A program made the position numbers and the translations under genes. 29,159 bases of DNA from a virus: IMG/VR virus record IMGVR_UViG_3300022821_000084, positions 1-29,159 of that record, one strand, 5' to 3'. Under the pieces are notes generated by a model, which had not been told where the DNA came from, made no database searches, and was given only the letters and a program-made list of their open reading frames with translations. Numbering within the stretch: position 1 is the stretch's first letter; each line of letters begins with the position of its first letter. Shown here piece by piece: positions 8,219-23,758 of the stretch.

Positions 8219-8243
8219 ATAACAAGGAAGGTTAAAGATGGCT
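8219..8243 (+). promoter_or_regulatory. Strong translation start region of the major capsid gene
   Basis: The 25 bases up to codon 2 are identical to those at the major tail protein gene (13301-13325). The core is AACAAGGAAGGTTAAAGATG, with AAGGAAGG as Shine-Dalgarno. Only these two genes, encoding the most abundant virion proteins, carry it. Confidence 0.8.
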
Positions 8244-10021: not shown

Positions 10022-10966
10022 ATGGCAGATTATGATAGCTCACTACCAATAAGAACGGAATCAGCGGGTGACGTTGATATTTTTATCAGTGACGCAACGA
10101 TAAGCACACAAAAATTAAAGGTAAACGCTGACGGCTCAATCGATGTTAACGCAACGGCTACCGATCTCGATATTAGAGATCTGGTATTCGCAACGGATAA
10201 AGTAGATGTAAGTGGTTCAAGTGTAACTGTATCAGCTACAGACTTAGACATCAGAGACTTACTCTTCGCTTCTGATAGCGTAGACGTTTCAGGATCTCAA
10301 ATACTAGGCATTACTAACGATGTTAATATCGCCGATGGCGGTAATAGCATTACAGTAGATGCGGTAGACTTCGACATAAGAGACTTAGCCTTCGCTACTG
10401 ACTCAGTAGATGTGAGTGGTTCAAGTGTAACTGTATCAGCTACAGACTTAGACATTAGAGATCTTGCTTTTGCAACGGATAGCGTTGATGTAAGTGGTTC
10501 AAGTGTAACGGTTTCGGCTACAGACTTAGACATCAGAGACTTAGACGCAGCTCAAGACTCAGTACAAGCTAACCTATTCGACGAGGCAGGAGTAGCATTT
10601 AGTGCGACTAATCCTCTTCCAGTAGTAGTATCTTCTGACTCTGAAGGTGATGAGGTATGTGATTATAATACGAGCGCGGCGGTAGCTAAAGACGCTTCTG
10701 TTAATCACGATTATTCAGTCACAGCGTTAAAGACTTTCATCGGGGAAGAGGCTTGGATCTCAGGATCAGGAAAGCTTAAAGTAGAGTTACTAATTAACGG
10801 AGCTGTTAAGTTTACAGGATTTAACTCGACATCTAATCCTAATGTAAGAATCCCTTTGGATCGTATGCCTAAAGGAGATGCAGGAGAGGTTATCAGGTTT
10901 ACAATTACTAACCGAGATAATCAAGCTCAGGATCTTTATAGTACCCTTACAGGTTTAGAGGTTTAG
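10022..10966 (+). CDS. Repeat-containing virion protein
   Basis: 314 aa in three parts. The N-terminus (1-45) has short beta stretches (DVDIFISDATISTQKLKVNA). The centre (46-182) holds five copies of a 26-residue repeat with the core ATDLDIRDLxFATDSVDVSG, spaced regularly except for an insertion in copy 2. The C-terminus (about 205-314) is a beta domain (SVTALKTFIGEEAWISGSGK, LKVELLINGAVKFTGF, GEVIRFTITNRDNQAQDLYS). The repeats suggest a stacked beta-solenoid or triple fibre. The repeats resemble decoration or fibre proteins of environmental phages. AAGGAAGG precedes the ATG. Head fibre or neck whisker is a reasonable guess. Confidence 0.6.
   Translation: MADYDSSLPIRTESAGDVDIFISDATISTQKLKVNADGSIDVNATATDLDIRDLVFATDKVDVSGSSVTVSATDLDIRDLLFASDSVDVSGSQILGITNDVNIADGGNSITVDAVDFDIRDLAFATDSVDVSGSSVTVSATDLDIRDLAFATDSVDVSGSSVTVSATDLDIRDLDAAQDSVQANLFDEAGVAFSATNPLPVVVSSDSEGDEVCDYNTSAAVAKDASVNHDYSVTALKTFIGEEAWISGSGKLKVELLINGAVKFTGFNSTSNPNVRIPLDRMPKGDAGEVIRFTITNRDNQAQDLYSTLTGLEV
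10157..10567 (+). repeat. Tandem repeat of about 78 bp within the virion protein gene
   Basis: Repeat copies begin at residues 46, 72, 114, 140 and 166 (26, 42, 26, 26 and about 17 residues). Copies are nearly identical in protein; DNA identity is highest across AGTGGTTCAAGTGTAAC, followed by TGTATCAGCTACAGACTTAG, which recurs with few changes. This allows copy number change by recombination. Confidence 0.9.
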
Positions 10967-13300: not shown

Positions 13301-13325
13301 ATAACAAGGAAGGTTAAAGATGGCT
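13301..13325 (+). promoter_or_regulatory. Strong translation start region of the major tail gene
   Basis: Twenty-five bases identical to those at the major capsid gene (8219-8243), including AAGGAAGG and the ATGGCT start. It is preceded by an AT-only run (TATTATATATATAA, 13291-13304) that may keep the region unstructured or act as a weak -10. Confidence 0.8.
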
Positions 13326-14228
13326 TGTAGAGTACAAGAACAATCAATTAAATTAGAAGCGGTTACAGTAACGTGGGGAAGAGAGCAATGTAGAGCGGTC
13401 CCAATGGTAGCCGATGTTTCGGGTTCATTAAGTGGAGAGTATTTCGACCTTAATGTTTTAGACATTAACGGCGTAGAGTCTAAGTACTACGTACTCCTAG
13501 ACAATGGAAGCGCAGTAGATCCAGCTCCGGCGGGAAAGACTAAGATCACAGTAAGTTATTCAGACGACGACGATGCGGCAACAATCGCAGCGGATATGCA
13601 AGTAGCTATCGACGCAATCTCGGACGTAAGTGCTGAAGTTGTAGACGGTAACGTAGTCCATATCCAAAACGATTGGATCGGAGAAGTAAGCGCAGAAGAT
13701 CAATCTAACGCTAGTTCTTTCGAGTTCTCTAACTTAGAGGGTATCGGCGGGAACTTAGGTAGAACTTCTGAAGGTGTTGAGATTTCTATTGAGACTCAAT
13801 CTACAGAGATCACGTCTAATCAAACAGGCGGGTTAATCTTAGATGAAATCGGTCAAGGTCAATCAGCATCTTGTACAGCTTCATTTATTGAGCTAACAAA
13901 AGAAAGACTAGAATCACTTATAGCGGGGGCAGTAGGCGGGACTCATACTCCTGTAGCTGGTACTAAGTTAATCGGCGGCGGTTCTTCAAAGCTATTCCAA
14001 AGTCTAAAGACTTTAGGTGGGAAGCTTATCCTTCATCCTCAAAGACTTGCTAAGAGTGATAGATCGGAAGACTTTGTTTTCTGGCTAGCAGCTCCTAAGC
14101 CTGAGTCTATCAACTATTCGGGAACTGATGTTCAAGCATTAAGTTGTACTTTTACCGCTTACCTTGATGACAGTAAGCCGGATGAAGTTGACCTCTTTGC
14201 AATCGGTGATTGGAAACAAGAGTTATAA
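13320..14228 (+). CDS. Major tail tube protein with an inserted domain
   Basis: 302 aa. The two ends match a tail tube protein family: residues 1-40 (VQEQSIKLEAVTVTWGREQC, VPMVADVSGSLSGEYF) and 150-302 (EISIETQSTEITSNQTGGLI, LILHPQRLAKSDRSEDF, SCTFTAYLDDS, VDLFAIGDWKQ). Between them (about 41-145) sits an extra domain with KYYVLLDNGSAVDPAPAGKT, ATIAADMQVAIDAISD and VVDGNVVHIQND. That block is a mobile domain seen in several phage structural proteins, here probably on the outside of the tube. Strong ribosome binding region, and a perfect hairpin follows the stop. Confidence 0.85.
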   Translation: MACRVQEQSIKLEAVTVTWGREQCRAVPMVADVSGSLSGEYFDLNVLDINGVESKYYVLLDNGSAVDPAPAGKTKITVSYSDDDDAATIAADMQVAIDAISDVSAEVVDGNVVHIQNDWIGEVSAEDQSNASSFEFSNLEGIGGNLGRTSEGVEISIETQSTEITSNQTGGLILDEIGQGQSASCTASFIELTKERLESLIAGAVGGTHTPVAGTKLIGGGSSKLFQSLKTLGGKLILHPQRLAKSDRSEDFVFWLAAPKPESINYSGTDVQALSCTFTAYLDDSKPDEVDLFAIGDWKQEL

Positions 14229-14238
14229 ATAGAATAAG

Positions 14239-14262
14239 TAAGGAGGCAATAAAGCCTCCTTA
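14239..14262 (+). terminator. Perfect hairpin after the major tail gene, containing an anti-Shine-Dalgarno copy
   Basis: TAAGGAGGC (14239-14247) and GCCTCCTTA (14254-14262) form a 9-bp stem with a 6-nt loop. There is no real T-tract afterwards, so it may be an mRNA 3'-end block or attenuator. The right arm contains CCTCCTTA, the same as the end of bacterial 16S rRNA, and the left arm is a perfect Shine-Dalgarno with no start codon after it. Confidence 0.6.
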
Positions 14263-14279
14263 TTAACAAAAGGTTTTGC

Positions 14280-14522
14280 ATGTTAGAGTTAGTTTCAAAA
14301 GAACTAGAGTTAAGCTTCGAGGGGAAAATCCAAAAGCTTAAATACCCTACCGTTAAACACATGAAGAAAATTAACAGTAGCCTAAACGAAGCCGGAGCCA
14401 ACGAGATAGCATTGCTATCTGAATTACTCCAAGACTTAGGGATGGATGAAGACGTAGCCGAAAACCTTGAAGTGGAGCATGTTAATTTGATCGTGCAGGA
14501 GTTGACCGCTACAAAAAAGTGA
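14280..14522 (+). CDS. Tail assembly chaperone, upstream frame (gpG-like)
   Basis: 80 aa between the tail tube and tape measure genes, the conserved place for the tail chaperone pair. It starts with beta-like LELVSKELELSFEGKIQKLK YPTV and goes on with helices (KKINSSLNEAGANEIALLSE, then LLQDLGMDEDVAENLEVEH), as in other G-type chaperones. The frame ends AAA AAG TGA, placing the slippery heptamer A AAA AAG (14513-14519) directly at the stop. Most ribosomes would make this short form; a fraction slips -1 and goes on into the next frame to give a fusion of about 181 aa. AAAGG precedes the ATG. Confidence 0.82.
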   Translation: MLELVSKELELSFEGKIQKLKYPTVKHMKKINSSLNEAGANEIALLSELLQDLGMDEDVAENLEVEHVNLIVQELTATKK

Positions 14523-14589
14523 TAGATTACTTCGACGTTAACTTAGCTATGTTTATGAATTTTTATAGCTACAAGTTTATCGAAGTAAT
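14497..14589 (+). other. Programmed -1 ribosomal frameshift element
   Basis: In order: AGGAG (14497-14501), 11 nt, slippery A AAA AAG (14513-14519) in the correct zero-frame phase (AAA AAG), stop TGA (14520-14522), then a stem starting 6 nt after the heptamer: ATTACTTCGA (14526-14535) with TCGAAGTAAT (14580-14589), 10 perfect bp. An inner stem pairs 14540-14550 with 14565-14577 around a 2-nt bulge, with a 14-nt loop. The same order (Shine-Dalgarno, A AAA AAG, stem) drives frameshifting in E. coli dnaX. The -1 frame continues as V-I-D-Y-F-D into the downstream chaperone. Confidence 0.8.
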
Positions 14590-14824
14590 GGAGTTACGAA
14601 ACGATTTATTTGAGTATCTGTATAACGCTATGATAAAGGCGAAAGCAACGGATAGAGTTAACGATTTAGAGTTATACGTCTATCCTCACGTTAAGGCAGA
14701 TGTAGCTAAGAAGATACATAAAAAACTATATGAGCAAGCGATGCCGGAGAGTGCCAAGAAGGACCGCATTGTTACGATGGAAGACTTAAAGCAGCAAGGG
14801 TTTAACGCACTTGCTAAGGGCTAA
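14519..14824 (+). CDS. Tail assembly chaperone, frameshift part (gpT-like)
   Basis: This frame is -1 relative to the upstream chaperone and begins at GTG 14519, the base directly after the slip. It is probably not started independently: the GTG has no placed ribosome binding site except the stimulator at 14497, which is too far. The product (IDYFDVNLAMFMNFYSYKFI, EVMELRNDLFEYLYNAMIKA, TMEDLKQQGFNALAKG) is helical and would form the C-terminal half of the long chaperone that binds tail subunits and the tape measure. It ends 2 bp before the tape measure start, as usual. Confidence 0.78.
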   Translation: MIDYFDVNLAMFMNFYSYKFIEVMELRNDLFEYLYNAMIKAKATDRVNDLELYVYPHVKADVAKKIHKKLYEQAMPESAKKDRIVTMEDLKQQGFNALAKG

Positions 14825-14826
14825 GA

Positions 14827-17154
14827 ATGGCTAAGAAACTTATAATCCAATACGATCTTAAACCCGTGAAAATCGACAAGGCTTTCCGCCCCATCGAAAC
14901 GCAATCGGCTAGAATTGGCAAGCTTTCAGGCAAGAAGTTCAAGAAAGAATTTAAACAAGAGACTAACGGCTTAGGGAATAAACTTCTAGGCGGGCTTAAA
15001 AGTCAGCTTAAAAGTTTCGGAGCTTTAGCAGCGGCAGCGGGAGGAGCATTTCTCCTTAAAGAATCTATTCGATCAGCCGCCGATTTCGAGAAAGCCCTAA
15101 TAGAAATCAATACTATTCTTCCTAAGAATACTAAATTAACAGATCGGCAAACAAGTGCTTTAAAGAATCTAGCCAAGCAATATGGTACTTCGGCAACGGA
15201 TCAAGCAAAGTCATATTATCAAGTCATATCCGCAGGGATAACAGATGCTGCATTAGCGACCGACGCTCTAGACGCTGCCAACAAATTAGCCGTTGGGGGT
15301 TTATCAGATGTAGGAAGTTCAATCGACATCCTTACCTCGATAATTAACGTCTATGGTGCTGAGAATATAACGGCAGAAGAGGCAGCGGATTCGCTTTTCA
15401 AAACCGTTCAACTTGGTAAGACAACTATATCAGAGCTTTCAAGCTCTCTAGGTTTAGTCCTTCCTTCAGCGAAAGCGGCAGGGGTAGGACTAAACGAAGC
15501 TAACTCGGCGATAGCATTACTAACGGCTAACGGTCGTTCTACGGCTAGAGCAGTTACCGAAGTAAACGCAGTAATAAACGGCTTCGCTAGAAACGGAGCT
15601 AAGTTAGGCAAGGGCTTAAATACAGCGGCGATTAAAGCCGATGGACTCGGAGTAGTAGTCGCAAGATTAATACAATACTCTAAAGACTCAGGTAAAGAAT
15701 TAGTCGAGTTACTAGGAAGTACGGAGGCAGTTAGTGGAGCCTTAACTCTAGGAGCCAATAACGGGAAGACGTTTAACGGTGTATTAACGGAGCTATCCAA
15801 AAACGCCGGAGCATCCGGTAAGGCTTTCGATCAAGTAGCTAAATCAGCTGACTTTCAATTTAAAAAATTAAGCGCAGAATTAGACGTACTAGGTATCGAG
15901 ATCGGTACTAAGCTACTGCCTATAGTTCTTAAACTAGCGGAAGCCTTTAGCTTCTTACTTAGGGGCGGGAACGATCCTATTAAAGCAATGGGAGTCGATA
16001 GAATACGAGCGGAAGTAAGCGCATTACAATTACAAGTCGATACACTTAGAGAAGGATCTATCTTACCCGATTGGCTAACCGCTGATCTAGACGAGTCAGA
16101 AGCTAAGTTAGCAAAATATCAAAAGAGGCTTAGAGAGCTTACAATAACGGAAGGAAACTTAGTAGAACAACGAAAGAATAACGCTAATTCTCAGCCGGAT
16201 TTCTTAGAACTATTCGGATCTGAAGGGGATTTCTTCGGAGTCAATAAAGGAATAGACGAGAGTGTAGGCAAGCTCAAAGGAGCGGCGGCAGTATCTAAAG
16301 GGATCAAAGAAGAGGAAGCTTCAGATAATAAAAAACTATTAGAACAGAAGAGAATAGATCAACAACTATTTTCCCAAGCATCTCTCAATAATGAAACAAC
16401 TATTATCAATGCAGCACTTGCAAAGCAAGAAGCTATCGAAGCATTAAGAGAGAGAGATCTAATCACTAGAGAAGAATACAACGAGGCTCTCTTAGCTAAC
16501 GAACAGACTAAGGAAGATAAACTCTCCTCTTTAGCACAGCAAAGAACTGATGCGAATGTCTTTAGTTTCAACGCTATCGGGAAAGCATTTATAGAAAACA
16601 ATAAAAGGATGAAAGCGTCGGCTAGAGATGTCGCAAGTATAGTGCAAAGAAGTTTCCAAACAGGTTTTGGAAATGCTTTCCAAGCCGTAGGAGCTGCATT
16701 AGCTTCGGGCGCAAGTGCTATGGATGCATTTAAATCGGCGGTAATGGGTACCTTCGCAGATCTAGCCTCGTCACTTGGTAACTATTATATAGCTCTAGGT
16801 ATTGCTAGGACAGCCGCCTACGATCCAGGGGGACCGGCAACACTCGCCGCTGGTATAGGACTTAAAGTATTGTCAGGAGTTTTATCAGCTAGTGGAGGAT
16901 CTTCGGCTGGCACTCCGAGTACAGGCGGCGGCGGGGGCGGCAGCGTTACCGGATCAGCGGCGGCAGGATTTAATCAAGACGAAATACTAGACGAGCCAGA
17001 TTCTATCGATAGACGGGAGCCGGAGACATCGGTATCCATTACGGTTAACGGCGATATATTAGACAGCGAAGAAACGGGAACGAAGCTAGCTAGCGTCCTT
17101 TCCGATTCTTTTGGAAAACAAGGCGTAGTCCTTAGAGATGCGAGGTTTGCGTAG
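14827..17154 (+). CDS. Tape measure protein
   Basis: 775 aa with a TP901-type minor tail domain at about 80-270 (FEKALIEINTILPKNTKLT, LKNLAKQYGTSATDQAKSYY, ALDAANKLAVGGLSDVGSSI, GVGLNEANSAIALLTANGR). A hydrophobic stretch near 60-78 (FGALAAAAGGAFLL) and a helical, partly coiled central part follow; the C-terminus has a membrane-like Ala-rich region around 620-700 and a Gly/Ser-rich linker (TGGGGGGSVTG). It sets tail length and is later ejected with DNA; at about 0.15 nm per residue the tail would be near 115 nm. It follows the chaperones and overlaps the next start by one base. Confidence 0.95.
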   Translation: MAKKLIIQYDLKPVKIDKAFRPIETQSARIGKLSGKKFKKEFKQETNGLGNKLLGGLKSQLKSFGALAAAAGGAFLLKESIRSAADFEKALIEINTILPKNTKLTDRQTSALKNLAKQYGTSATDQAKSYYQVISAGITDAALATDALDAANKLAVGGLSDVGSSIDILTSIINVYGAENITAEEAADSLFKTVQLGKTTISELSSSLGLVLPSAKAAGVGLNEANSAIALLTANGRSTARAVTEVNAVINGFARNGAKLGKGLNTAAIKADGLGVVVARLIQYSKDSGKELVELLGSTEAVSGALTLGANNGKTFNGVLTELSKNAGASGKAFDQVAKSADFQFKKLSAELDVLGIEIGTKLLPIVLKLAEAFSFLLRGGNDPIKAMGVDRIRAEVSALQLQVDTLREGSILPDWLTADLDESEAKLAKYQKRLRELTITEGNLVEQRKNNANSQPDFLELFGSEGDFFGVNKGIDESVGKLKGAAAVSKGIKEEEASDNKKLLEQKRIDQQLFSQASLNNETTIINAALAKQEAIEALRERDLITREEYNEALLANEQTKEDKLSSLAQQRTDANVFSFNAIGKAFIENNKRMKASARDVASIVQRSFQTGFGNAFQAVGAALASGASAMDAFKSAVMGTFADLASSLGNYYIALGIARTAAYDPGGPATLAAGIGLKVLSGVLSASGGSSAGTPSTGGGGGGSVTGSAAAGFNQDEILDEPDSIDRREPETSVSITVNGDILDSEETGTKLASVLSDSFGKQGVVLRDARFA

Positions 17155-23053: not shown

Positions 23054-23284
23054 ATGGCTGAAATGAAAGACGAAATGAAGAAACTAGCTCTAAGGTATGC
23101 CGAGAAATATGCCGAGCTTTCTATAGAGTTCGCTATGGAGCTAATGCAAAAGGGTGCTGATCTTTCATCTAACCCAATTGACGATGCTATCGTAGCCGCT
23201 TCTAGGGGTTTTATGGAGAGTTCACTAATGGACTTAGCCGATAAGATCGACGGCGAAATCGAAGAAGAAGAAGATAAAGAGTAA
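23054..23284 (+). CDS. Small helical acidic protein (76 aa)
   Basis: AAGGAATAATT precedes the ATG. The product is almost wholly helical (EMKDEMKKLALRYAEKYAEL, SIEFAMELMQKGADLSSNPI) with an acidic end (IDGEIEEEEDKE). No membrane segment or signal peptide. It sits between the membrane coiled-coil protein and another small gene, overlapping the latter by one base, so it is probably cotranscribed. Function not recognised. Confidence 0.55.
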   Translation: MAEMKDEMKKLALRYAEKYAELSIEFAMELMQKGADLSSNPIDDAIVAASRGFMESSLMDLADKIDGEIEEEEDKE

Positions 23285-23484
23285 TGGGGAAAATACTTCA
23301 GCTCGTAGCCGTTTTAGTAGGCAAGCCAATACTTGAGAAAGTAGCGTCTTACCTAGTGGACTATTTACAAGCTGAGTACGAAACTTATAAGATGCGGAAA
23401 AAGCAAAAGAAGCTATACGAAGAGTTAAAAAAGGCTAAAGGTCCCGATGAGATACGTGCTATTAATCGCAAGCTTAGTCTTTAA
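23284..23484 (+). CDS. Small amphipathic protein with basic tail (66 aa)
   Basis: The start overlaps the previous stop by one base. The N-terminus is hydrophobic (ILQLVAVLVGKPILEKVASY) but short and interrupted, so a membrane association is possible rather than a certain span. The rest is a basic helix (YKMRKKQKKLYEELKKAKG). It overlaps the spanin-like lipoprotein gene by 38 bp in another frame, an arrangement common for spanin pairs, so it may be the inner-membrane partner. That role is uncertain. Confidence 0.5.
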   Translation: MGKILQLVAVLVGKPILEKVASYLVDYLQAEYETYKMRKKQKKLYEELKKAKGPDEIRAINRKLSL

Positions 23485-23758
23485 TTCTTGTGGTACTTTA
23501 CCCGAGAAGCCTGAAGTAACTAACTGCCTTTTTTTAATTGAACATAATAGAGCAGCTTGTTTAAATAATGTAACGGGAGAAGAGTCCGAAGTACCTCTAA
23601 CCGCTATGGATAAATATGTAGCATTTAGCCCTGGAGATTGGGTCAAAGCTATAGACTATATTCGTATGCTAGAGAAATACAGGAGGAATCACCCCGAAAT
23701 AAAAAAGCTCTTAGGCTCTTATCCATCGAAGGTAAGAGTCCAAAAGAAGAGGAATTAA
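23447..23758 (+). CDS. Small lipoprotein, outer-membrane spanin-like
   Basis: 103 aa with a short lipoprotein signal (MRYVLLIASLVFNSC), Cys15 being the likely acylated residue although Asn-Ser before it is not the commonest lipobox. The mature part, NCLFLIEHNRAACLNNVTGE, SEVPLTAMDKYVAFSPGDWV, resembles small phage lipoproteins placed near lysis genes. An outer-membrane spanin joins inner and outer membranes at the last lysis step, which implies a Gram-negative host. The start lies inside the preceding gene (38-bp overlap), as in embedded spanin pairs. Fairly sure of lipoprotein, less sure of spanin. Confidence 0.62.
   Translation: MRYVLLIASLVFNSCGTLPEKPEVTNCLFLIEHNRAACLNNVTGEESEVPLTAMDKYVAFSPGDWVKAIDYIRMLEKYRRNHPEIKKLLGSYPSKVRVQKKRN

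Follow-up and report, generated by a model that had tools for sequence, protein, structure and literature searches.

A probable programmed -1 frameshift site with candidate stimulators on both sides in the tail assembly chaperone genes of an uncultured virus

The DNA analysed here, called the window, is a whole record of 29,159 bases from an uncultured virus in IMG/VR, and its structural genes run in the order terminase, capsid, tail genes and tape measure, which is of the tailed-phage type. Long-tailed phages have their tail assembly chaperone genes in the stretch that separates the major tail protein gene from the tape measure gene. A pair of ORFs occupies this position in the window, and the relatives described below have the same order. 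The features of the region are the following.

13320-14228, + strand: major tail protein gene, matched in PHROG by Ig-domain and major tail proteins (context)
14280-14522, + strand: upstream ORF, very likely a (G-like) tail assembly chaperone of 80 aa and the product of normal termination; ORF, AlphaFold model and homologues in 30 loci
14497-14501, + strand: AGGAG, a Shine-Dalgarno-like (SD) candidate for a 5' stimulator, separated from the heptamer by 11 nt; sequence, with L116, L142, L147 and L152 having the same motif at this spacing
14513-14519, + strand: slippery heptamer A_AAA_AAG; sequence, X_XXY_YYZ in 31/31 loci
14513-14824, + strand: -1 frame (T-like) part of the predicted fusion chaperone, KKVIDYFD...; ORF, -1 frame homologues in all relatives
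14520-14522, + strand: TGA stop of the upstream ORF, proposed to be passed by shifted ribosomes; sequence
14526-14535, + strand: 5' arm of the outer stem, 10 bp; fold, covariation in the window sub-lineage, arm-swap test
14540-14577, + strand: inner stem of 12 bp, containing a 2-nt bulge and a 12-nt loop (14540-14551 with 14564-14571 and 14574-14577); predicted fold only
14580-14589, + strand: 3' arm of the outer stem, 10 bp; fold, covariation, arm-swap test
14827-17154, + strand: tape measure protein gene, PHROG tape measure E 5e-47 and Pfam PF10145 (context)

Other features were observed in the window. A G+C-rich hairpin, AGTAAGGAGGC-AATAAA-GCCTCCTTATT, lies at 14237-14264, between the stop of the major tail protein gene and the start of the first chaperone ORF. 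Relatives with a gap of at least about 30 nt between these two genes have a hairpin there too, of unrelated sequence, and those with a gap under 30 nt have none; the hairpin may be a stabiliser of the abundant tail-protein mRNA or a partial transcription terminator. An identical leader, ATAACAAGGAAGGTTAAAGATG, precedes both the capsid gene (8220-8240, start at 8238) and that of the major tail protein (13302-13322, start at 13320); the two most abundant structural proteins share one strong translation start. The ORF at 10022-10966 consists mostly of repeats, about 26 residues long and almost identical to each other (DLDIRDLxFATDSVDVSGSSVTVSAT), and the ORF at 61-543 holds an Ala/Tyr-rich simple repeat (AYAYAYAY). 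Two small ORFs, at 23284-23484 and 23447-23758, overlap in different frames, the second with a lipoprotein-like start (MRYVLLIASLVFNSCG); the two are possibly a spanin-like lysis pair.

The two chaperone ORFs of the window gave no significant match to the protein HMM libraries. The AlphaFold model of the first ORF (mean pLDDT 87.4) shows a beta-hairpin followed by helices. Its top PDB match in Foldseek was the HK97 tail assembly chaperone 2OB9, at a probability of 0.80 and a weak E of 0.18, and predicted structures of viral proteins with the name tail assembly chaperone recurred among its top matches, several at a probability of about 0.99. The predicted fold by itself is not decisive, but combined with the gene order it makes the first ORF very likely a tail assembly chaperone.

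The divergence of the chaperone ORFs is too high for relatives to be found with them alone, and relatives were therefore gathered via terminase and via major tail protein alignments, giving 31 loci: the window and 30 related loci, a few of them near-duplicates. Identity to the window ranged across the relatives from 13 to 44% for the first ORF and from 19 to 42% for the second. The fusion protein as query found no relative in the collection scan, and scans with only the tape measure or only the tail protein of the window as query yielded a single distant match or none. No prophage relative was found in the bacterial genome scan, and annotated phage isolates gave distant matches only, to the terminase and the tail protein. 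Another 47 records with a terminase were searched with a profile and gave no match; since many of them are fragments, this result is uninformative.

In some of the relatives (L125/L126 and L119/L120 vs L117/L118/L121), close major tail proteins stand beside differing chaperone cassettes, with A7-C and a stem versus A9-T, mostly without a stem. Different cassettes beside close tail proteins suggest that the chaperone pair and its frameshift site may be swapped between phages as one unit.

The upstream ORF ends with ACA AAA AAG TGA, and the heptamer is in the right phase for tandem -1 slippage directly before the stop, as the original prediction had stated. After a -1 slip the reading would become AAA AAA GTG ATA GAT TAC TTC GAC (KK-VIDYFD). 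An in-phase X_XXY_YYZ heptamer was found at the upstream stop, or one codon before it, in 31/31 loci, each time followed by a homologous open ORF that lies in the -1 frame and overlaps the end of the first ORF. The types are A_AAA_AAG, A_AAA_AAA and A_AAA_AAC, with G_GGA_AAG, which is the lambda heptamer, in L149 only. At the protein identities given above, the heptamer therefore outlasts most of the protein sequence. Relatives that keep the genes and lose both heptamer and stem had been proposed as the observation that would count against the site; none of the 30 relatives lose the heptamer, and about half are without the long stem.

It had also been claimed that the downstream frame begins exactly at the slip. 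This was incorrect, as the -1 frame is open from 14486 to the stop at 14824, and what coincides with the slip is its first possible start codon, the GTG at 14519. This GTG overlaps the TGA (GTGA) and offers a second way to translate the -1 frame, in which ribosomes would terminate at the TGA at 14520 and restart at the GTG, the second protein would be a separate one, and the AGGAG would serve the coupling, as an SD near a gene end can (PMC5009743). However, 17 nt separate the AGGAG from the GTG, a longer distance than usual initiation allows. In the relatives TAA, TAG or another codon replaces the TGA, so that the -1 frame reads GTA, TTA, CTA or GCA at this place, none of which is a start, and the first start codon after the slip comes at +2 to +110 nt, mostly at 20 nt or more and often inside conserved protein sequence, the one exception being a TTG at +2 in L127. 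No start codon was found in the -1 frame before the slip in any of the 31 loci. Nearly all relatives are without a start codon at the junction, and re-initiation is therefore not the shared mechanism; it also leaves the heptamer of all 31 loci and the covarying stem described below unexplained. The GTG of the window is a coincidence of its TGA stop, and we regard re-initiation as very improbable here.

Downstream of the slip, a perfect outer stem of 10 bp starts after a spacer of 6 nt and closes an element of 64 nt, at the positions originally predicted. The bulged inner stem was also predicted by folding, at 12 bp with a 2-nt bulge instead of the 11 bp first described. Folding of 14490-14600, which had been suggested as a check, gave an MFE of -26.7 kcal/mol (z = -2.9 vs dinucleotide shuffles). 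Compared to sequences that encode the same -1 peptide with other synonymous codons, the downstream structure of the window was of higher stability (z = -2.7, p = 0.017), and in the loci of a second sub-lineage the same test gave p = 0.003, its floor. The Rfam search of the element gave no match to any known frameshift family.

The outer stem is real, as shown by compensatory changes in two sub-lineages and by an arm-swap test. Over the 31 loci the native arms formed duplexes with a mean of -12.8 kcal/mol, compared to -8.3 (sd 0.51) for permuted arms, and 0/20,000 permutations were as low. In the window sub-lineage (the window, L116, L142, L147 and L152) the arms pair in one register, 6 nt past the heptamer; 4/10 pairs are changed on both sides and 88% of the cells are paired. 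The covariation score was 0.49 vs 0.24 for shuffled alignments, was reached by 0/500 shuffles, and dropped when the partners were slid by 1-3 columns. The second sub-lineage (L114, L119, L120, L122, L123 and L125) forms a separate stem of 13 bp, in a single register, with 95% of the cells paired and a score of 0.41 vs 0.19 (0/500 shuffles). Covariation in related phages, the other comparison that had been proposed, is thus borne out in both sub-lineages; the rows of both tests were picked as stem-forming, which favours the stem, and the arm-swap test is free of this bias. L128 and L149 have comparable stems in shifted registers, and adding them together with L113 (other registers or local pairing) to the window sub-lineage made the covariation weaker (8/500 shuffles).

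Most loci with a short A run have a stem, and most with a long one have none. A strong long-range stem was found in 15/19 loci with seven consecutive A's or fewer vs 1/12 loci with 8-9 A's (Fisher p = 1.7e-4, phylogeny ignored, with a stem cut-off of -11.5 kcal/mol that was picked after seeing the data). Threshold-free rank tests, which also ignore phylogeny, gave p values of 5e-4 to 6e-4. Among independent pairs, which allow for descent, an average of 4.2 agreed and 0 opposed, with a median p of 0.125, which is not significant, and for this reason we keep the association as a lead only. It is possible, if somewhat doubtful, that there is a trade-off in one lineage, in which loci with seven A's or fewer have a long covarying stem, some of them with an SD as well, and loci with 8-9 A's do without because the run would be slippery enough alone or via polymerase slippage.

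The long runs bear on a further explanation of the fusion, namely that RNA polymerase inserts or skips A's within the run and that standard translation of the altered mRNA makes the fusion protein. Runs of 9 A's occur in many relatives, and polymerase slippage has been described at this length for the 9 A's of T. thermophilus dnaX (PMC3711429). The window, however, has just 6 A's and the GGGAAAG of L149 just 3, the 9-A runs are mainly in loci without a stem, and a covarying downstream stem at ribosomal spacing points to the ribosome. Like re-initiation, transcriptional slippage is unlikely for the window, and we give it very little weight. With its six A's, SD and stem, the window belongs to the ribosomal type.

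The AGGAG was found where it had been reported, and its distance of exactly 11 nt from the heptamer is common to the window, L116, L142, L147 and L152. Active SD elements stimulating -1 frameshifting lie 9-14 nt upstream (PMC5009743), and the window spacing falls within this range. At the phage's own starts the SD signals had a mean of -5.6 kcal/mol vs -2.2 kcal/mol for the background; the host ribosome therefore presumably reads such signals. With the heptamer and the stem taken as real, the AGGAG could nevertheless be no stimulator and simply a by-product of the conserved K/Q-E-L peptide that it overlaps, the E-L being kept near the C-terminus of the first ORF. Against a null of synonymous codons the window gave just p = 0.053, and most of the distant relatives have no SD. 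Yet the same null gave p = 0.024 for L116, 0.041 for L142 and 0.005 for L113, though 0.12-0.20 for L147 and L152, and the window and the four loci that share the AGGAG all use G-ending codons (AAG or CAG, then GAG), always at 11 nt and at a spacing reported as active. Part of the AGGAG conservation could be protein-coding constraint, but an AGGAG that is nothing else seems rather unlikely to us, and on its position and codon use it probably acts as a frameshift stimulator.

Taken together, the gene order, the predicted fold, the heptamer of 31/31 loci and the covarying stem agree with the original prediction of a -1 frameshift in a tail chaperone pair, and it is almost certain from the comparison of sequences that the site would be a programmed -1 ribosomal frameshift site yielding two tail assembly chaperones from one message. 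We infer the slippage itself, its rate, its stimulation by the SD and the stem and the roles of the products in tail assembly, as follows. Most ribosomes would read 14280-14519 and terminate at the TGA at 14520, making the 80-aa G-like protein. In a minority, the two lysine tRNAs on AAA AAG would move back one base to AAA AAA, and these ribosomes would bypass the stop and read the -1 frame to 14824, making a G-T-like fusion of 181 aa. Behind the ribosome the AGGAG would pair with 16S rRNA, and ahead of it would stand the stem-loop, both raising the rate of the slip. By analogy with lambda (PMC5009743), the short form may bind and coat the tape measure protein and the fusion may recruit the major tail protein.

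Long-tailed dsDNA phages conserve a -1 frameshift of the lambda G/GT type in their tail chaperone genes (Xu, Hendrix and Duda 2004, reviewed in PMC5009743). The window shares with lambda the order tail protein, G, -1 T and tape measure, a slip near the end of G and a fusion that extends the short form. It differs from lambda in that the slip is at the stop codon itself, accompanied by a properly spaced SD and by a strong 3' stem that covaries, and its sequence is too divergent for existing HMM families. With E. coli dnaX it shares A_AAA_AAG, an SD about 10 nt upstream and a stem-loop a few nt downstream. In dnaX, however, the shift leads to an early stop and a shorter product, which is made at about 50%, whereas here it leads past the stop to a longer one; there is no sequence relation, and the window genes are tail genes, not a DNA polymerase III subunit. 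The label dnaX-like given earlier to the element suits its layout (heptamer, SD within 9-14 nt upstream and stem about 6 nt downstream) and not its outcome. The dnaX gene itself was rejected as the identity of the element on the basis of the tail genes, of a shift that extends the protein and of the Rfam result. IS3-family elements such as IS911 also have an A-rich slippery heptamer, an upstream SD, a downstream structure and a fusion that extends the first ORF; they differ in carrying transposase genes, and in IS911 a three-way junction forms the structure (PMC5009743).

The combination of both stimulators is known from dnaX and IS elements (PMC5009743). A survey of E. coli found conserved hairpins at 3/5 prophage frameshift clusters and a conserved SD at 3/13 IS and prophage clusters (PMC4066793), and for two genes of an HK97-like cluster frameshifting of 6% and 7% was obtained experimentally (PMC3711429). 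With conserved hairpins that common at prophage clusters (PMC4066793), the earlier statement that this site surpasses the usual one of phages is no more than plausible.

Frameshifting in tail chaperones has itself long been known, and the locus is very likely a chaperone pair of the lambda G/GT type with putative dual stimulators in the style of dnaX. If the trade-off is true, the same chaperone ratio would be reached by two routes in close relatives. What is added here is comparative evidence on the stimulators: compensatory changes of the stem, seen in two sub-lineages, a switch to another heptamer type and the relation of the stem to the length of the A run. Together they offer a natural series in which to test how the ratio of two proteins is maintained while the signal changes.
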